DNA of 64,000 nt from Mangrovimonas aestuarii (GTDB lineage Bacteria; Bacteroidota; Bacteroidia; Flavobacteriales; Flavobacteriaceae). Below, piece after piece: positions 31,750 to 62,983 of this stretch; the first letter of the stretch is position 1, and each line of letters starts with the position of its first letter. A model generated the notes under the pieces. It was given only the letters and a program-made list of their open reading frames with translations. It had not been told where the DNA came from and searched no databases. Position numbers and translations under genes: made by a program. Location of the stretch: assembly GCF_028767185.1 (NCBI RefSeq), contig NZ_JARACK010000005.1:62001-126000 (forward strand), given 5' to 3'.

Positions 31750-32865
31750 ATGATCACCATTAAAAAAGTAAACACAAAAAAAGAGCTTAAAGCTTTTGTT
31801 AAATTCCAATTTGAACTTTATAAAAACAATAAATACTGGGTGCCACCAATTATTAAGGATGAAATTGATAGTTTCGATCCAGATATCAACCCAGTATTTA
31901 AACACGCAGAAGCTACCTTTTATTTAGCTTATAAGAACAATAAAATAGTTGGCCGTATTGCCGCTATTATTAATTGGACCGAAGTTAAGGCTCAAGAACC
32001 AAAGGTGCGTTTTGGTTGGTTTGATGTTATAGACGACATTGAAGTTACCAAAGCTCTTCTCGATAAAGTTATAGAACACGGTCATGCTCATAATTTAGAA
32101 TTCATTGAAGGCCCTATGGGCTTTTCTAATCTTGACAAAGTGGGCGTGCTAACTGAAGGGTATGATCAATTAAGTACTATGATTACCTGGTATAACTACC
32201 CATATTATGTCACTCACTTAGAAAAGTTGGGTTATGTAAAGCAAAAGGAATTCATTGAGGGCTATTTTGACGTAGATCAGGTTAAACCTGAAGTATACAA
32301 AAAAATGGTGCCATTAATTTCCAAGCGTTACGGCATTAGACCGTTAAACTTTACAAGTACAGATGAAGTTATTCCGTATGTGGATAAGATGTTCGATCTG
32401 TTTAACGAAACTTATGCCAAACTTGCTTCTTTTGTCCCTATTTCTAATGACCAAAAGGCCTATTTCAAAAAGAAGTACATCCCTATGGTAAATCCAGAAT
32501 ATATCAAGTTTGTTTTGGATGAAGATGATAATATCATTGCTTTTTCGATAGTGTTGCCTTCTTTTTCAAAAGCGTTGCAAAAAGCAAACGGAAAACTATT
32601 TCCTTTTGGATTCTATCACTTGTTAAAAGCAAAAAAACACAGCGATGAAGCTGTTTTTTACCTTATTGGTATAAGACCAGAGTATCAAAACAAAGGGGTA
32701 ACTGCATTAATTTTTAACGAATATTACAAATCGTTCAAGAAAAGTGGGGTTAAACGCTGCATACGCACTCCAGAATTAGACGAAAATATGGCAATCCATC
32801 AATTATGGAAAAACTTTAACTCGCCTATCACTAAAAGAAGGAGAACCTATAAGAAATCCATTTAA
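31750..32865 (+). CDS. GNAT-fold acyltransferase-like protein
   Basis: A 371-residue protein conserved in Bacteroidota. The C-terminal part holds a GNAT-like acetyl-CoA segment (FYLIGIRPEYQNKGVTALIF, read in parts). The N-terminal part (VKFQFELYKNNKYWVPP, ATFYLAYKNNKIVGRIAAI) looks like a first, degenerate GNAT half. FIEGPMGFSN and IRTPELDENMAIHQLW are family marks. Some databases label relatives as GTP cyclohydrolase, which the sequence does not support. Substrate unknown. Confidence 0.7.
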   Translation: MITIKKVNTKKELKAFVKFQFELYKNNKYWVPPIIKDEIDSFDPDINPVFKHAEATFYLAYKNNKIVGRIAAIINWTEVKAQEPKVRFGWFDVIDDIEVTKALLDKVIEHGHAHNLEFIEGPMGFSNLDKVGVLTEGYDQLSTMITWYNYPYYVTHLEKLGYVKQKEFIEGYFDVDQVKPEVYKKMVPLISKRYGIRPLNFTSTDEVIPYVDKMFDLFNETYAKLASFVPISNDQKAYFKKKYIPMVNPEYIKFVLDEDDNIIAFSIVLPSFSKALQKANGKLFPFGFYHLLKAKKHSDEAVFYLIGIRPEYQNKGVTALIFNEYYKSFKKSGVKRCIRTPELDENMAIHQLWKNFNSPITKRRRTYKKSI

Positions 32866-32875
32866 ACAAAAACAT

Positions 32876-32907
32876 AAAAAAACCCACTTAAAAAAAGTGG
32901 GTTTTTA
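32876..32907. terminator. bidirectional terminator
   Basis: AACCCACT and AGTGGGTT flanked by A and T runs, between the convergent acyltransferase and SPT-like genes. Confidence 0.85.
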
Positions 32908-32927: not shown

Positions 32928-34187
32928 TTACTCTCCCATTGCAGCAGCAACTGCAGCAGATAAACGCTTATAAGTTCCATTTTCCAAACGTTCACGGATA
33001 GCTGAGAATGCGTCCAGAGTTTCATTAATATCTTCCATTGTGTGAGTAGCAGTAGGAATCATTCTTAACAAGATCAATCCTTTTGGAATTACAGGATACA
33101 CAACGATAGAACAGAAAATTCCGAAATTCTCACGTAAATCCTTAACCAAAGCCATCGCTTCAGGAATACTACCTTTTAAGTAAACTGGAGTCACACAACT
33201 TTGAGTTGTTCCTAAATCGAATCCACGATCTCTTAAACCAGATTGTAATGCATTTACATTTTCCCAAAGCTTGTTTTTAATCTCAGGCATTGTACGCAAC
33301 ATTTCCAAACGTTTTAATGCTCCAACAACCAATTGCATTTGCAATGATTTAGCAAACATTTGAGAACGTAGATTATATTTTAAATAGTCGATAATTTCTT
33401 TATCTCCAGCAATAAAAGCACCAGTACTGGCTAATGATTTAGCAAAAGTCGCAAAGTAAACATCAATTTTATCTTGTACTCCTTGCTCCTCACCTGCTCC
33501 AGCACCAGTTTTACCTAATGTACCAAAACCGTGAGCATCATCAACCAATAAACGGAAGTTAAATTTCTCCTTAAGAGCAACAATCTCCTTTAAACAACCT
33601 TGCTCACCACGCATACCGAATACACCTTCAGAAATCACTAAGATTCCTCCACCAGTTTGCTCAGCCATTTTAGTAGCACGCTCCAAGTTTTTTTCTAAAC
33701 TATCTACATCATTGTGTTTGTAAGTAAAACGCTTACCCATGTGCAAACGCACACCGTCAATAATACAAGCATGAGCATCTACATCGTATACGATAATATC
33801 ATCTTTAGAAACCAAAGCATCAATAGTAGATACCATTCCTTGGTAACCAAAGTTCAATAAATAAGCTGCTTCCTTACTAACAAAATCAGCTAATTCATCT
33901 TGTAACTTTTCATGAAGATCAGTATGACCAGACATCATCCTCGCTCCCATTGGGTATGCAGACCCATATTGTTGAGCAGCCTCTGCATCTACCTTACGTA
34001 CTTCAGGGTGGTTTGCTAAACCTAAGTAATCATTGATACTCCAGGTAATAACATCTTTTCCTTGAAACTTCATTCTATTAGAGATTTGACCTTCTAATTT
34101 AGGAAACACAAAATACCCCTCAGCCTGAGAAGCCCACTTTCCTAAAGGTCCTTTATCTCTGTATATCTTTTCAAATAAATCTTTCAT
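32928..34187 (-). CDS. alpha-oxoamine synthase (serine palmitoyltransferase-like), probable cysteate acyltransferase
   Basis: A 419-residue fold-type I PLP enzyme of the alpha-oxoamine synthase family. It shows NDYLGLANHPEV, YPMGARMMSGHTDLHE, VDDAHGFGTLGKTG and FATFAKSLAS, with the PLP lysine. Relatives join an acyl thioester to an amino acid with loss of CO2: serine in sphingolipids, glycine in KBL. In Flavobacterium johnsoniae a homologue acts on cysteate to make capnine, a sulfonolipid needed for efficient gliding. The upstream gene is a cysteine-synthase-like protein that could supply cysteate. The assignment to cysteate is inference; serine palmitoyltransferase is the alternative. Confidence 0.8.
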   Translation of the reverse strand: MKDLFEKIYRDKGPLGKWASQAEGYFVFPKLEGQISNRMKFQGKDVITWSINDYLGLANHPEVRKVDAEAAQQYGSAYPMGARMMSGHTDLHEKLQDELADFVSKEAAYLLNFGYQGMVSTIDALVSKDDIIVYDVDAHACIIDGVRLHMGKRFTYKHNDVDSLEKNLERATKMAEQTGGGILVISEGVFGMRGEQGCLKEIVALKEKFNFRLLVDDAHGFGTLGKTGAGAGEEQGVQDKIDVYFATFAKSLASTGAFIAGDKEIIDYLKYNLRSQMFAKSLQMQLVVGALKRLEMLRTMPEIKNKLWENVNALQSGLRDRGFDLGTTQSCVTPVYLKGSIPEAMALVKDLRENFGIFCSIVVYPVIPKGLILLRMIPTATHTMEDINETLDAFSAIRERLENGTYKRLSAAVAAAMGE

Positions 34188-34215
34188 GTAAGTTATTATT
34201 CTTTTTAATTTGATG

Positions 34216-34223
34216 CAAAATTA
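34216..34223 (-). promoter_or_regulatory. -7 promoter element of the SPT-like gene
   Basis: On the minus strand TAATTTTG matches TAnnTTTG exactly, 28 bases before the ATG. It lies downstream of a terminator, so this gene has its own promoter. Confidence 0.5.
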
Positions 34224-34271
34224 TACAAATATCTTAATTAACATAATGCTTTAACGTACTATTATTAACAA

Positions 34272-34310
34272 CAAAAAGAGGATTTACGTTATTAAAACGT
34301 AAAGCCTCTT
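34272..34310 (-). terminator. terminator after the cysteine-synthase-like gene
   Basis: AAGAGG/CCTCTT plus TTTACGTT/AACGTAAA form a long hairpin; the minus strand has a run of five T after it. It sits 22 bases past the stop codon. Confidence 0.75.
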
Positions 34311-34331
34311 CCTGAACATTAGAGTTTTTAA

Positions 34332-35375
34332 TTACTCGTTAATATACTGAATACGCTCTGCTGCTTCTGCATTAACTGTATCGAAGAAGCCTTGGTCACT
34401 CATCCATTCGTCACTATAAATTTTACTCATATATCGTGAACCATGATCTGGAAAAACAACGACTACTAAATCATCCTTACCAAAACGGCCAGCCTCATTA
34501 AGCTGTTTTATCGCCTGCATGGCAGCACCAGAGGTGTAGCCAACAAACAAACCTTCTGTTTTAGCTATATGCCTAGCTGTATGAGCACTTTCTTCATCAC
34601 TAACTTTTACAAATTCATCAATCATGTCAAAATCAGTAGCTGAAGGAATCAAGTTTTTACCTAAACCCTCAATTCGGTATGGGTATATTTCTTTTTCGTC
34701 GAACTCTCTTGTTTCGTGATACTTTTTAATAACTGATCCAAAAGCATCTACACCTATTACTTTGATATTAGGATTTTGCTCCTTTAAGTATTTAGCCGTA
34801 CCAGAAATAGTTCCTCCTGTTCCACTACAAGCTACCAAATGAGTAATTTTACCTTCGGTTTGTTTCCAAATCTCTGGTCCGGTTGAATTGTAGTGAGCAT
34901 CTATATTTAATTGATTGAAGTACTGATTGATATAAACAGACCCTTTAATCTCATCATGCAATCTTTTGGCTACCTGATAATACGATCTTGGATCATCAGC
35001 GCTTACATGTGCAGGACATACATATACTTTAGCACCCATTGTCTTCAACATATCAATCTTATCTGCCGAAGACTTCGAGCTTACCGCCAAAATACAGTCA
35101 TAACCTTTAATAATACTAACCATAGCAATACTAAAACCTGTATTTCCAGAAGTCGTTTCTATGATTGTGTCACCAGGTTTTATAATACCCTGCCTTTCGG
35201 CTTGTTCTATTATGTAAAGTGCTATTCTGTCTTTGGAAGAGTGTCCCGGATTAAAGGCTTCTACTTTTGCATAATAGTTGCCATTGAAGGGAGCTGTAAT
35301 TTTGTTTAGTTTGATTAGGGGCGTATTTCCCACTAAATCTAATATGTTATCAAAAACTTGATTGTTATGTCCCAT
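34332..35375 (-). CDS. cysteine synthase-like PLP enzyme, possible cysteate synthase
   Basis: A 347-residue fold-type II PLP enzyme related to O-acetylserine sulfhydrylase and cystathionine beta-synthase. It shows [39 protein letters not shown] and [19 protein letters not shown]. The PLP-lysine region reads NPGHSSKDR instead of the usual NPGGSVKDR, which suggests a changed substrate pocket. It is next to the SPT-like enzyme. In capnine synthesis, cysteate is made from a serine derivative and sulfite by an enzyme of this class. That role is inferred; ordinary cysteine or cystathionine synthesis is the alternative. Confidence 0.8.
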
Positions 35376-35427: not shown

Positions 35428-35460
35428 CAAAAATAATGATTTTTTTTAATTAGCTATCAA
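35428..35460 (-). promoter_or_regulatory. promoter of the cysteine-synthase-like gene
   Basis: On the minus strand TATTTTTG (35428-35435) matches TAnnTTTG exactly, with a TTG at 35458-35460, 22 bases upstream. The leader would be about 50 bases. Confidence 0.4.
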
Positions 35461-37510
35461 TTCCTTCCAAATCTAGCAAAAAGGCATACTCCATGGCCAC
35501 CTCTTTAAGGCTCTCAAAACGCCCAGATGCTCCGCCATGCCCTGAATCCATATCTATATGAAATAATAGCTTATTTGTATCTGTTTTAAATTCCCTGAGC
35601 TTAGCTACCCACTTTGCAGGTTCCCAATATTGCACCTGAGAATCGTGTAGCCCCGTCGTAACTAACATGTTAGGGTATGGTCCGCTTCTAACGTTGTCAT
35701 ACGGAGAATACATCAGAATATAATCGTAATATTCCTTATCATTTGGATTACCCCACTCGTCATACTCTCCTGTGGTTAATGGTATGGTATCGTCCAACAT
35801 TGTTGTCACTACGTCAACAAAGGGAACAGCAGCAATAATACCATTGTAAAGCTCAGGACTTAAATTAGCTACAACCCCCATTAAAAGCCCTCCTGCAGAT
35901 CCTCCGTAGGCATACAAATGTTCTGCCGATGTATATTTTTGATTAATTAGATACTTCGAACAATCAATATAATCGGTGAAAGTATTCATCTTTTCCAACA
36001 ACTTACCTTTCTCATACCAATCACGACCCAAATATTCTCCGCCTCGTATATGAGCTATGGCATAAATAAATCCCCTATCGAGTAAACTAAGTCTAATACT
36101 GGAAAAATAGGGATCTATAGTCGACCCATAAGATCCATAGGCATAAAGAAACAACGGTGCAGTACCATCTAATTTCACTCCTTTTCTATAAACCAATGAA
36201 ATTGGTACTTTAACACCATCTGCAGCTGTTGCCCAAATACGCTCAGAAGTGTAATTATTCTTATCGAACTTCCCTCCAAGAACTTCCTGTTCCTTCTTAA
36301 CGTCTTTTGTTTTGGTCTTAAAATTATAGTCAATAACCGAACTTGGAGTAGTTAAAGAGTTATAACTAAATCGCAACACATCACTGTTAAACTCAGGGTT
36401 ATTTCCAGTATAAGCTGTATAAGTTTCACTTTCAAATGGCAGGTAATAATCTTCATTACCGTCCCAACTCATAATGCGGATTTTATTCAAACCATTTTCG
36501 CGTTCACTAACTACAAGATAATTCTTGAAAATTTCAATATCTTCTAACAAAACATCCTGTCTATGCGGTAAAACTTCCTCCCAAAATTCTTTAGAAGTTT
36601 GTTTTTCTGATGTTTTAAGCAACTTAAAATTAACTGCCTTATCCTTATTTGTTAAAATATAAAAATGGTCTTCAAAATGAGCAATAGAATATTCATGCTC
36701 TCTTTCACGCTCCTGAAAAACTGTAAATTTACCATCAGGTGTATTGGCATTCAAAAAACGATATTCTGTTGTTAAAGTACTCGAAGAACCTATTACAATA
36801 TACTTTCTTGATTTTGTTTTATAAACAAAAGAATTAAAAGTATCATCCTTTTCATGAAAAACTAAAACATCGTCTTTGGCATCAGTTGCTAAACGATGTT
36901 TAAAAATTTTATGTGAGCGTAAAGTTACTCTATCCTTCTTAGTGTAAAATAGCGTTTTATTATCGTTCGCCCACGTTGTGCTCCCTGTTGTATTAACTAT
37001 TTTATCTGGGTAAACCTCACCGGTAGCAAGGTGCTTGATGTAAATAGTATACTGTCTTCTACTAACTGTATCAACTGCAAAACTAGCCAATGTATTATCT
37101 GGACTAACCGAGATTCCGCCCAGTTTGAAATAAGAATGACCCTTGGCCATTTCATTACAATCAAACATAATTTCCTCTTCAGCATCTAAACTACCTTTCT
37201 TTCTTGAATAAATAGGATAATCTTTTCCTTTTTCATACCGGGTAATATACCAGTATCCATTCAACAAATACGGCACAGAAGTATCATCCTCCTTGATACG
37301 TCCTTTCATCTCCTCAAAAAGCGACTTTTGTAATTCTTCTGTATGTTTCAAACAAGACTTCGTATACTCGTTCTCTTCATTAAGGTAGTCTATCACCTCT
37401 TGATTCTGCCTATCATTCAACCAATAGTAATTGTCTATGCGTTCATGATCATGAACACGTAATACTTTTGGTTTTTTATCCGCCTTTGGTATTTGAGTCA
37501 AAGTTTTCAA
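35450..37510 (-). CDS. S9A-family serine peptidase (oligopeptidase B-like)
   Basis: A 686-residue cytoplasmic peptidase. The N-terminal domain is a seven-bladed beta-propeller (from about 75 to 410). The C-terminal alpha/beta hydrolase holds the nucleophile in YGGSAGGLLMG, the aspartate in GLHDSQVQYWEP and the histidine in SGHGGASGR. There is no signal peptide. RGGEYLGRDWY is characteristic of S9A. Oligopeptidase B cuts short peptides after basic residues, but specificity here is unproven. Confidence 0.92.
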   Translation of the reverse strand: MKTLTQIPKADKKPKVLRVHDHERIDNYYWLNDRQNQEVIDYLNEENEYTKSCLKHTEELQKSLFEEMKGRIKEDDTSVPYLLNGYWYITRYEKGKDYPIYSRKKGSLDAEEEIMFDCNEMAKGHSYFKLGGISVSPDNTLASFAVDTVSRRQYTIYIKHLATGEVYPDKIVNTTGSTTWANDNKTLFYTKKDRVTLRSHKIFKHRLATDAKDDVLVFHEKDDTFNSFVYKTKSRKYIVIGSSSTLTTEYRFLNANTPDGKFTVFQEREREHEYSIAHFEDHFYILTNKDKAVNFKLLKTSEKQTSKEFWEEVLPHRQDVLLEDIEIFKNYLVVSERENGLNKIRIMSWDGNEDYYLPFESETYTAYTGNNPEFNSDVLRFSYNSLTTPSSVIDYNFKTKTKDVKKEQEVLGGKFDKNNYTSERIWATAADGVKVPISLVYRKGVKLDGTAPLFLYAYGSYGSTIDPYFSSIRLSLLDRGFIYAIAHIRGGEYLGRDWYEKGKLLEKMNTFTDYIDCSKYLINQKYTSAEHLYAYGGSAGGLLMGVVANLSPELYNGIIAAVPFVDVVTTMLDDTIPLTTGEYDEWGNPNDKEYYDYILMYSPYDNVRSGPYPNMLVTTGLHDSQVQYWEPAKWVAKLREFKTDTNKLLFHIDMDSGHGGASGRFESLKEVAMEYAFLLDLEGIDS

Positions 37511-60652: not shown

Positions 60653-62983
60653 ATGAAAGTTTGCATTGCCGAAAAGCCTAGTGTGGCCCGCGAAATTGCC
60701 ATAGTCCTTGGAGCGAATACCAAGCGTGATGGTTATTTTGAAGGTAATGGCTATGCTGTCACATATACTTTTGGGCATTTATGTAGTTTATTTGAACCTA
60801 AGGATTATAAACCATATTGGAAAAGTTGGGATTTAAATAACCTCCCAATGCTACCAGATAAATTTCAGACCAAGGTGGTAAATGATTCTGGAATAAAAAA
60901 ACAATTCAACATTGTAAAAAAATTGTTTGAACAAGCCGAAGTGGTCATAAACTGTGGCGATGCCGGTCAAGAAGGAGAACTTATTCAACGATGGGTTATC
61001 AATCAAGCTGGATATACTGGTAAAATTGAACGTTTATGGATATCGTCGTTAACTACTGAAGCCATTAAAGAAGGCTTTGACAATCTACGTCCTTCAGCTA
61101 ATTATGATAACCTTTTTTATGCTGGATTTTCCCGAGCGATAGGTGATTGGTTATTAGGTATTAATGCTACAAGGCTTTATACCGTAAAACATGGTGGATA
61201 CAAACAGGTTTTATCCATAGGTCGTGTTCAAACTCCAACACTAGCTATGGTTGTTGAACGCTACAAAGAAATTGAAAACTTTAAGCCACAACCCTACTGG
61301 GAACTACAAACCATTTACCGTGACACGCGTTTTAGTTATGAGGATGGACGATTCTTTAAAAAAGAAGATGGTGAAATTCTAGCAAATACGGTTAAGGAGC
61401 ATCCTTTTGAAATTGTTTCGATTAGTAAGAAAAAAGGGAAAGAATATGCACCAAAGTTATTTGATCTGACAGGCTTGCAGGTTCATTGTAATAATAAATT
61501 TGGTTACTCCGCAGATGAAACCTTAAAAATCGTTCAACGATTGTATGAGCAGAAAGCGGTTACCTACCCTCGTGTAGATACTACTTTTCTTCCTTCGGAC
61601 ATATACCCTAAAGTACCAGGTATACTGGGCCAATTAACACCTTATAGAGAATTGACATTACCTTTGTTGGATAAGAAAATTAAAAAGTCTTCGAAAGTAT
61701 TCAATGATAAAAAGGTGACTGATCACCATGCCATTATCCCAACTGGCATTCAAATTAATATGCCCGAAAACCACCGTTTGGTTTACGATAGCATTGTTAG
61801 GCGGTTCATAGCCGTTTTTTATGACGATTGTGAAGTTTCCAATACCACAGTATTAGGGCAAGCTGGAGAAGTCCCTTTTAAAACTACCGGTAAGGAAATA
61901 TTAAAACCAGGATGGCGTATCGTATTTCAAACAGAAAATAAAGATAAAAACGAAGGTAATATCCTCCCATCTTTTACTAAAGGTGAAAGCGGTCCCCATG
62001 AACCTGCTTTTTTAGAAAAAGAAACCAAACCACCTAGACAATTTACAGAAGCATCTCTCTTGCGTGCTATGGAAACTGCAGGTAAACAAGTGGATGACGA
62101 TGATATGCGGGAACTCATGAAAGAAAATGGTATTGGTAGACCATCAACGCGAGCAAGCATTATCGAGACACTTTTTAAGCGTAAATACATAATAAGAAAC
62201 AAAAAACAAATCCTCCCTACCCCTACGGGAATTCAACTGATTGATACGATTCAAAATGAACTTTTGAAATCTGCAGAACTCACGGGTCGTTGGGAAAAAC
62301 AATTAAAGGATATTGAAAAAGGAGAATGCCATGCGGCTACTTTCATAAACAATATGAAGCGCATGGTAGACCGATTGGTTTATGAAGTTCGAAGTGAAAC
62401 GGTAAAAGCCAATATTAGTTACGCGAACCATTCCCCTAAAAAAAACACAACGCAAAATAAAACTAACACAAAAAAAACAGAAGGCATAGATAAACAAACC
62501 TGTCCTAAATGTGAAGAAGGCTCTTTACTTAAAGGTAAATCGGCTTATGGGTGTAGTGCTTTTAGAAGTGGGTGTGATTTTGTGCTTCCATTTAAATTCA
62601 AGAATAAGAAAATATCCGAAAAACAATTAATCAGACTTCTTGAAAAAGGCAGCACTGTTACTCTAAAAGGGTTTAATACCGATTCCGGTAAAATTGATGG
62701 TTCAATACATTTCGATGAAAAATTCAATTTGATTCTGAAACAAAAATCGGAAAGTGTGAAAACAAAACCTTCTTCCAAAGAAAATCAATCAACCAACGAT
62801 CAATTAACCTGTCCTAAATGCAAGAAAGGAATAGTTGTTAAAGGAAAAACTGCATACGGATGTAGTGCGTATAAAGATGGTTGCAATTTTATGGTTAGCT
62901 TTGACCAAATCAGACAACAAGCTAACGGAGAAGTCCTTACCAAAGATTTGGTATACGAAATATTAAAATCTGGTCACCCCTAA
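60653..62983 (+). CDS. topB: DNA topoisomerase III (type IA)
   Basis: A 776-residue enzyme that decatenates or relaxes DNA. The Toprim domain is at the N-terminus (IAEKPSVAREIA, DAGQEGELIQRW). The type IA core follows with SIGRVQTPTLAM and YPRVDTTFLP, containing the active-site tyrosine; IGRPSTRASIIE is the usual later motif. The C-terminus has two zinc-ribbon-like modules (CPKCEEG ... CSAFRSGC and CPKCKKG ... CSAYKDGC). Its stop overlaps the next start (TAATG). Confidence 0.93.
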   Translation: MKVCIAEKPSVAREIAIVLGANTKRDGYFEGNGYAVTYTFGHLCSLFEPKDYKPYWKSWDLNNLPMLPDKFQTKVVNDSGIKKQFNIVKKLFEQAEVVINCGDAGQEGELIQRWVINQAGYTGKIERLWISSLTTEAIKEGFDNLRPSANYDNLFYAGFSRAIGDWLLGINATRLYTVKHGGYKQVLSIGRVQTPTLAMVVERYKEIENFKPQPYWELQTIYRDTRFSYEDGRFFKKEDGEILANTVKEHPFEIVSISKKKGKEYAPKLFDLTGLQVHCNNKFGYSADETLKIVQRLYEQKAVTYPRVDTTFLPSDIYPKVPGILGQLTPYRELTLPLLDKKIKKSSKVFNDKKVTDHHAIIPTGIQINMPENHRLVYDSIVRRFIAVFYDDCEVSNTTVLGQAGEVPFKTTGKEILKPGWRIVFQTENKDKNEGNILPSFTKGESGPHEPAFLEKETKPPRQFTEASLLRAMETAGKQVDDDDMRELMKENGIGRPSTRASIIETLFKRKYIIRNKKQILPTPTGIQLIDTIQNELLKSAELTGRWEKQLKDIEKGECHAATFINNMKRMVDRLVYEVRSETVKANISYANHSPKKNTTQNKTNTKKTEGIDKQTCPKCEEGSLLKGKSAYGCSAFRSGCDFVLPFKFKNKKISEKQLIRLLEKGSTVTLKGFNTDSGKIDGSIHFDEKFNLILKQKSESVKTKPSSKENQSTNDQLTCPKCKKGIVVKGKTAYGCSAYKDGCNFMVSFDQIRQQANGEVLTKDLVYEILKSGHP

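Follow-up and report, generated by a model that had tools for sequence, protein, structure and literature searches.

The window analysed here is a stretch of 64,000 nucleotides (positions 62,001–126,000 of contig NZ_JARACK010000005.1) from Mangrovimonas aestuarii, whose genome assembly (2.95 Mb, 15 contigs) is 99.94% complete. Two neighbouring open reading frames were confirmed on its minus strand, at 32928–34187 and 34332–35375, with an intergenic gap of 144 bases between them. The genes and signals of the locus, with the gene names that are argued for below, are the following:

31750–32865, plus strand: tandem-GNAT acyltransferase gene, convergent with capB; candidate capnine or 3-ketocapnine N-acyltransferase (predicted)
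32878–32906, both strands: terminator-like hairpin between capB and the GNAT gene (12 pairs; minus-strand fold z −4.70)
32928–34187, minus strand: capB, putative cysteate fatty acyltransferase, an alpha-oxoamine synthase of SulA/CFAT type (419 aa; assigned from identities, Lys 280 and clade)
34260–34330, minus strand: terminator-like structure in the capA–capB gap, a hairpin with T-rich tail (RNA folding energy −21.7 kcal/mol, z −6.37)
34332–35375, minus strand: capA, putative cysteate synthase, a PLP enzyme of fold-type II (347 aa; assigned from the NF053679 match and the CapA clade)
35450–37510, minus strand: prolyl-oligopeptidase family gene directly upstream of capA (PF02897/PF00326); a conserved neighbour with no known role in the pathway

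None of 200 shuffled sequences folded as well as the hairpin at 34260–34330. Because this terminator-like structure lies between capA and capB, the adjacency of the two genes is no proof of a single transcript, and they may be separate transcription units. A promoter consensus scan returned matches at chance level (25 found, 24.3 expected). The pattern TTG-N17-23-TAnnTTTG, which we take to be of the Bacteroidota promoter type, has a match at 35460, before capA, and occurs 20 times in the window, against 9.8 on average over 30 single-base shuffles. This match points weakly to a promoter before capA.

As the sequence-only reading had noticed, an alpha-oxoamine synthase adjoins a PLP enzyme of fold-type II: the product of 32928–34187 matches PF00155 with 133 bits, and that of 34332–35375 matches PF00291 with 269 bits. 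The latter protein scores 656.4 bits with NF053679 (CysteaSynCapA, an NCBIfam equivalog model), above the curated cut-off of 600, and among the 25 families listed it stays under the cut-offs of the cysteine- and cystathionine-synthase models (TIGR01139, 273.5 against 350.95; TIGR01138, 256.2 against 394.2; TIGR01137, 398.8 against 510.25). A tree of 21 rows puts it among the 12 members of a CapA clade (support 99/99), outside which eight paralogues and cystathionine beta-synthase 7xrq are found. The nearest solved chain, 9k2p, which is 65.5% identical and is not named as a cysteate synthase, lies inside the clade. The genome also encodes a paralogue of cysteine/cystathionine-synthase type (L075, 55.2% identical), which reaches 468.9 bits with NF053679 and is placed outside the CapA clade. 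Six positions (S82, F153, A211, I235, K240 and N241) do not vary among the 12 CapA rows and carry other residues in the remaining nine. By its sequence, the product of 34332–35375 is thereby identified as a cysteate synthase of the CapA type.

The motif NPGHSSKDR, to which the same reading had drawn attention, is indeed present in this protein, but its histidine is not diagnostic of CapA. Apart from 9k2p, the CapA rows of the tree contain NPGHS in nine cases out of 11, NPGLS in one (Psychroflexus) and NPGQS in one (G037), and NPGHSIKDR was read in two of the eight non-CapA paralogues (G007 and G037). The histidine was thus rejected as proof of CapA.

The product of 32928–34187 is 73.3% identical over its whole length (718 bits) to 28eh, which is named as a cysteate-C-fatty acyltransferase, and 60.0% identical (576 bits) to SulA of Alistipes finegoldii (alfi_1224; 7u7h), while its identity to serine palmitoyltransferase (SPT) 3a2b is 34.6% (254 bits). 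In the tree, it falls together with 7u7h and 28eh into a clade with 100/100 support, separate from 12 SPTs. It also shares the active-site lysine of SulA: the position equivalent to SulA residue 281 is residue 280 here (RSQMFAKSLQM), and it is occupied by Lys in 17 of 17 CapB-type rows, three fusion proteins among them, and by Ala in 12 of 12 SPT rows. These features characterize the protein, at the level of sequence, as a cysteate fatty acyltransferase of the CapB/SulA type.

The distribution of the two genes was studied across 296 genomes that sample the phylum evenly, 30 of which belong to the family of M. aestuarii (hereafter, the host family). CapB (E ≤ 1e-100) is found in 108 genomes of the sample, and NF053679 is matched over its cut-off in 30, which are exactly the 30 of the host family, all with CapB. 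In 12 of these, capA lies directly upstream of capB. In a related genus (g2), both genes are present in 17 of 17 genomes and adjacent in none, and they are likewise apart in G088. A CapA-type gene scoring under the cut-off stands directly before capB in six genomes of a second family (540–552 bits) and in one of a third (508 bits), a group of seven set by eye and partly by this very adjacency. The tree included three of the seven (G095, G281 and G037), all of which joined the CapA clade. Among 80 loci selected by CapB similarity to Psychroflexus curvus, and so not an even sample, 79 have capA as the neighbour of capB and 78 have the oligopeptidase gene upstream of capA. Among these named loci, Mangrovimonas sp. 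TPBH4 has the nearest CapB, with 95% identity, and its GNAT is 82% identical. We also considered whether sphingolipid and sulfonolipid genes exclude each other, and dropped this argument beyond the host family, since 45 of the 108 CapB genomes (hand tally) have an SPT-type match (E ≤ 1e-113) as well.

Family membership of both proteins, the diagnostic lysine of CapB and the conserved linkage are what this analysis provides, and on these grounds we consider it very probable that 34332–35375 and 32928–34187 are the capA–capB pair of the sulfonolipid (capnine) pathway. This high confidence applies to the pair only, the GNAT step being graded separately. The substrates of these particular CapA and CapB proteins are predicted from their families, as is sulfonolipid production by the cell. 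The proposal of a probable capnine pathway pair, made earlier from the sequence, was thus borne out by the passed CapA equivalog model and by a CapB that carries the SulA-specific lysine within the SulA clade.

According to the reactions given in excerpts of two papers (PMC10191378, PMC11211663), CapA would sulfonate O-phospho-L-serine to L-cysteate, and CapB would form 3-ketocapnine from cysteate and the acyl-ACP or acyl-CoA thioester of a fatty acid, in a condensation that releases CO2. A short-chain dehydrogenase (SDR) encoded elsewhere in the genome would reduce 3-ketocapnine to capnine, and an N-acyltransferase, for which the tandem-GNAT gene at 31750–32865 is a candidate, would complete the sulfonolipid. 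Seven of the 16 SDR-type matches in the genome were scanned with NCBIfam, and no CapC was identified among these seven; the best candidate, L015, scores 268 bits with the 3-ketodihydrosphingosine reductase model, which has a cut-off of 400. PF00155 has 14 matches in the genome, three of them identified as alpha-oxoamine synthases: CapB itself, a BioF-like paralogue and a glycine C-acetyltransferase that exceeds the cut-off of its model. No SPT match was found at E ≤ 1e-113.

Both enzymes have described counterparts. CapA, CapB and CapC were described for Capnocytophaga (Liu et al. 2022, as cited in the available text of the review PMC10191378). The first two belong to the same enzyme families as the proteins of the window, where the CapA equivalog model is passed; the differences, known by description, are seen only in species and sequence, and no CapC is assigned in M. 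aestuarii. Alistipes, in the account of the same review excerpt, has a homologue of an archaeal cysteate synthase instead of CapA, whereas the window has CapA. Cys and CFAT of Chryseobacterium gleum and Fjoh_2419 of Flavobacterium johnsoniae are of the enzyme types seen here, a likeness drawn from descriptions in parts of PMC11211663, PMC9304779 and PMC12045153, and deletion of Fjoh_2419 abolished sulfonolipid in its host (PMC9304779, excerpt). CapB-type enzymes are known from several genera (excerpts of PMC10191378, PMC11211663 and PMC9304779). For sulfobacin B, the available part of PMC11211663 describes a four-step route from phosphoserine, with enzymes given for steps 1–3.

Two other readings of the pair have to be weighed. 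CapA and CapB share their superfamilies with cysteine synthase and SPT, and the top NCBIfam match of CapB is in fact the SPT model NF047600, so that the alpha-oxoamine synthase might be an SPT for ordinary sphingolipids that lies by chance next to an ordinary cysteine synthase. That match, however, amounts to 306.3 bits, far below the cut-off of 640, and the trees, which bear directly on the placement that had been named beforehand as decisive against the capnine pathway, contradict this reading: neither protein groups with the sampled SPTs or cysteine/cystathionine-synthase paralogues. With the Lys/Ala position, the CapA equivalog score, the capA–capB linkage seen in three families, and L075 as a separate cysteine/cystathionine-synthase type enzyme of the genome also standing against it, its probability is close to negligible. 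Cysteate has other known fates besides lipid. The pair could thus make cysteate for a non-lipid use, such as taurine or an osmolyte, with a CapB product other than capnine. This is very unlikely, since the CapB-type enzymes assayed in the literature convert cysteate to 3-ketocapnine or its analogue (excerpts of PMC9304779 and PMC11211663), and the diagnostic residue is present here.

A candidate for the last step of the pathway is the GNAT gene. It is separated from capB by 62 bases and converges with it, and therefore does not form one operon with capB. The AlphaFold model of its product (pLDDT 91.5) has a predicted tandem GNAT fold, with a Z of 23.2 to 7q3a (303 residues, 3.5 Å) and of about 15 to N-myristoyltransferases; the fold that the model has in common with solved structures reveals no substrate. 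The structure-match list for the model contained no bacterial ceramide synthase, which excludes nothing. With the family profile, the protein scores 528 bits over its full length, as follows by construction from a profile that includes it and its relatives.

More informative is the company that this family keeps. A strict SPT match (E ≤ 1e-150) was obtained in 36 genomes, 31 of which have a GNAT-family gene directly downstream of that SPT on the same strand; of the other five, G070 has an SPT–GNAT pair at its second SPT, and no family member adjoins SPT in G043, G247, G230 and G238. In three genomes (G128, G164 and G208), the two are fused into one protein of 795–830 aa, in which the SPT part carries Ala at the diagnostic position and the GNAT part is full-length, the C-termini matching the family profile with 385–400 bits over positions 2–371. 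The fused GNATs are only 24–25% identical to the GNAT of the window, and the clade of the latter is linked to an SPT neighbour through one genome, G033, the other SPT-adjacent or fused copies being on other branches. These arrangements indicate that the GNAT family most likely N-acylates the long-chain bases made by SPT. The working of the Spt–CerS–CerR route to ceramide in Caulobacter is similar, as it combines an alpha-oxoamine synthase with an N-acyltransferase (excerpts of PMC11087976 and PMC11324152). The family of the window's GNAT, which pairs with SPT in Bacteroidota, is likened to Caulobacter CerS (CC_1154) by arrangement, not by sequence.

The 30 sampled genomes of the host family all have CapB and gave no SPT match, and the GNAT may therefore well act there on capnine or 3-ketocapnine. 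We give an even chance to the proposal that the GNAT of the window N-acylates one of these two compounds, and that the family serves the whole of Bacteroidota, for ceramide where its gene stands behind SPT or is fused with it, and for sulfonolipid where CapB is the sole long-chain-base synthase found. That it supplies the missing fourth step of the capnine pathway is an equally balanced suggestion. In the openly licensed PMC literature, which was covered in part, no enzyme was found named as an N-acyltransferase for sulfonolipids or for the ceramide of Bacteroidota.

A third clade of the GNAT family is consistent with such a division of labour. Within the class to which the window belongs, and once families f1 and f2 are set aside for having GNATs of the window's clade, it is present in 28 of 34 CapB genomes and in none of three without CapB; one of the 28 (G178) has a long branch and an unsure placement. 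Seven of these genomes also have SPT, and in none of them is the member of the third clade the one that adjoins SPT. The pattern suggests that a different GNAT branch may be used for capnine in other lineages. As the GNAT of the window lies outside the third clade, the clade supports the idea about the family and not the window's gene directly.

The rival view holds that the gene at 31750–32865 is unrelated to the pathway, acylates another amine and stands beside capB only as part of a conserved block. A GNAT family match was found in 29 of the 30 host-family genomes, and in 22 of the 30 it converges with capB at less than 1 kb; this proximity says little alone, given that conservation in related genomes extends to a block of about ten genes around capA–capB. 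Co-occurrence is uninformative too, the family (E ≤ 1e-10) being nearly universal in the phylum (285 of 296 genomes). Of the 287 genomes that have SPT or CapB, 281 contain it, as do four of the nine that have neither (hand tally), a comparison that adds little for the same reason and because four of the five GNAT-less genomes among the nine are of one family; one genome with neither, G016, has only a partial weak match. A hand tally outside the host family gave close GNAT relatives (E ≤ 1e-76) in 16 of the 78 genomes that have CapB, compared with 21 of the 188 that lack it. Around such relatives, 16 regions were picked by hand; 15 are not near CapB, and in most of the regions the neighbours look unrelated to lipids.

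Genomes that keep capA and capB with no GNAT found bear on the same view. Psychroflexus curvus (G053) is one of them. The GNAT profile search, which covered 18 of the 28 loci without a local GNAT (from the 80 CapB loci), found none in six of 17 further CapB genomes, namely Mesonia mobilis, Gramella jeungdoensis, Salegentibacter lacus and three MAGs (Gillisia, Aquimarina and Flavobacteriaceae), and located a GNAT elsewhere in the genome in the other 11, Kordia and Dokdonia among them. In the phylum sample, G041 has CapB and no GNAT, and two more CapB genomes (G064 and G158) have only partial weak matches. The GNAT-less capAB genomes are evidence against a necessary role of GNAT, and an obligate partnership with CapB was rejected on the weak co-occurrence outside the host family (16 of 78 versus 21 of 188) and on Psychroflexus curvus. 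Against the rival view stand the place of the family as the downstream partner of SPT, fused to it in three cases, by which its general task is very probably on long-chain bases, and the host family itself, in which no SPT was found for the GNAT to serve. An unrelated GNAT is thus a real possibility, at somewhat below an even chance.

The GNAT family is a concrete candidate both for the closing N-acylation of the capnine route and for that of ceramide in Bacteroidota. The lineages that have lost it naturally represent a built-in control: CapB-positive lineages without GNAT (Psychroflexus, Mesonia, Gramella and Salegentibacter) would hold either free capnine or a replacement enzyme.

The capA–capB pair adds one more flavobacterium to a pathway already described. 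The genome of M. aestuarii contains the gliding-associated genes sprA (2719 bits) and gldJ (944 bits), and parts of a gliding machinery thus exist in it. The title of the study on Fjoh_2419 reportedly ties the sulfonolipid gene to efficient gliding. Sulfonolipids serve gliding, as stated in an excerpt of PMC10191378, and with sprA and gldJ present, a link between sulfonolipids and gliding is plausible in M. aestuarii. Beyond this organism, sulfonolipids have been tied to gliding, choanoflagellate development and host inflammation (excerpts of PMC9304779, PMC10191378 and PMC11211663).

Both SPT (serine palmitoyltransferase) and CapB, the cysteate fatty acyltransferase, occur as parts of larger proteins. 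In three fusions of 1108–1143 aa, a CapB-type synthase shares one chain with a fatty acyl-AMP ligase (FAAL) and an acyl carrier domain, and the diagnostic lysine (SulA position 281, alanine in SPT) is present in the CapB-type part of all three:

L055, 2145-5576: FAAL-carrier-CapB fusion
L056, 5571-8897: FAAL-carrier-CapB fusion
L057, 3472-6852: FAAL-carrier-CapB fusion

It is possible that each is a single-chain 3-ketocapnine synthase supplying its own acyl group. SPT is joined to a GNAT, of the family that includes the window's predicted capnine/3-ketocapnine N-acyltransferase, in proteins of 795–830 aa, which are spread over two families and are candidate bifunctional ceramide-forming enzymes:

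L292, 2351-4813: SPT-GNAT fusion
L293, 2091-4583: SPT-GNAT fusion
L294, 1703-4090: SPT-GNAT fusion

SPT-type matches (E <= 1e-113) were also found in 45 of the 108 CapB genomes among the 296 genomes of the phylum sample (hand tally), which runs against a remark in a review (PMC10191378) that sphingolipids and sulfonolipids are perhaps mutually exclusive in Bacteroidota. One internal stop codon each was observed in the following CapB matches:

G064, C11, 882216-883436
G214, C1, 107652-108896
G211, C1, 161518-162747

Genome G077 contains, about 4 to 9 kb from capB, a row of genes for a beta-ketoacyl synthase, a FabA-like dehydratase, a short-chain dehydrogenase, a window-clade GNAT and a glycosyltransferase:

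L282, 5866-10746, one strand: five-gene row

The prolyl-oligopeptidase family gene of the window (35450-37510), which has no evident tie to lipids, has a counterpart upstream of the cysteate synthase gene capA in 78 of 80 loci chosen by CapB similarity.

The profile search found no GNAT family member in the capA-capB-positive Psychroflexus curvus (G053/L129), Mesonia mobilis (L131), Gramella jeungdoensis (L132) and Salegentibacter lacus (L149); these four may hold free capnine.
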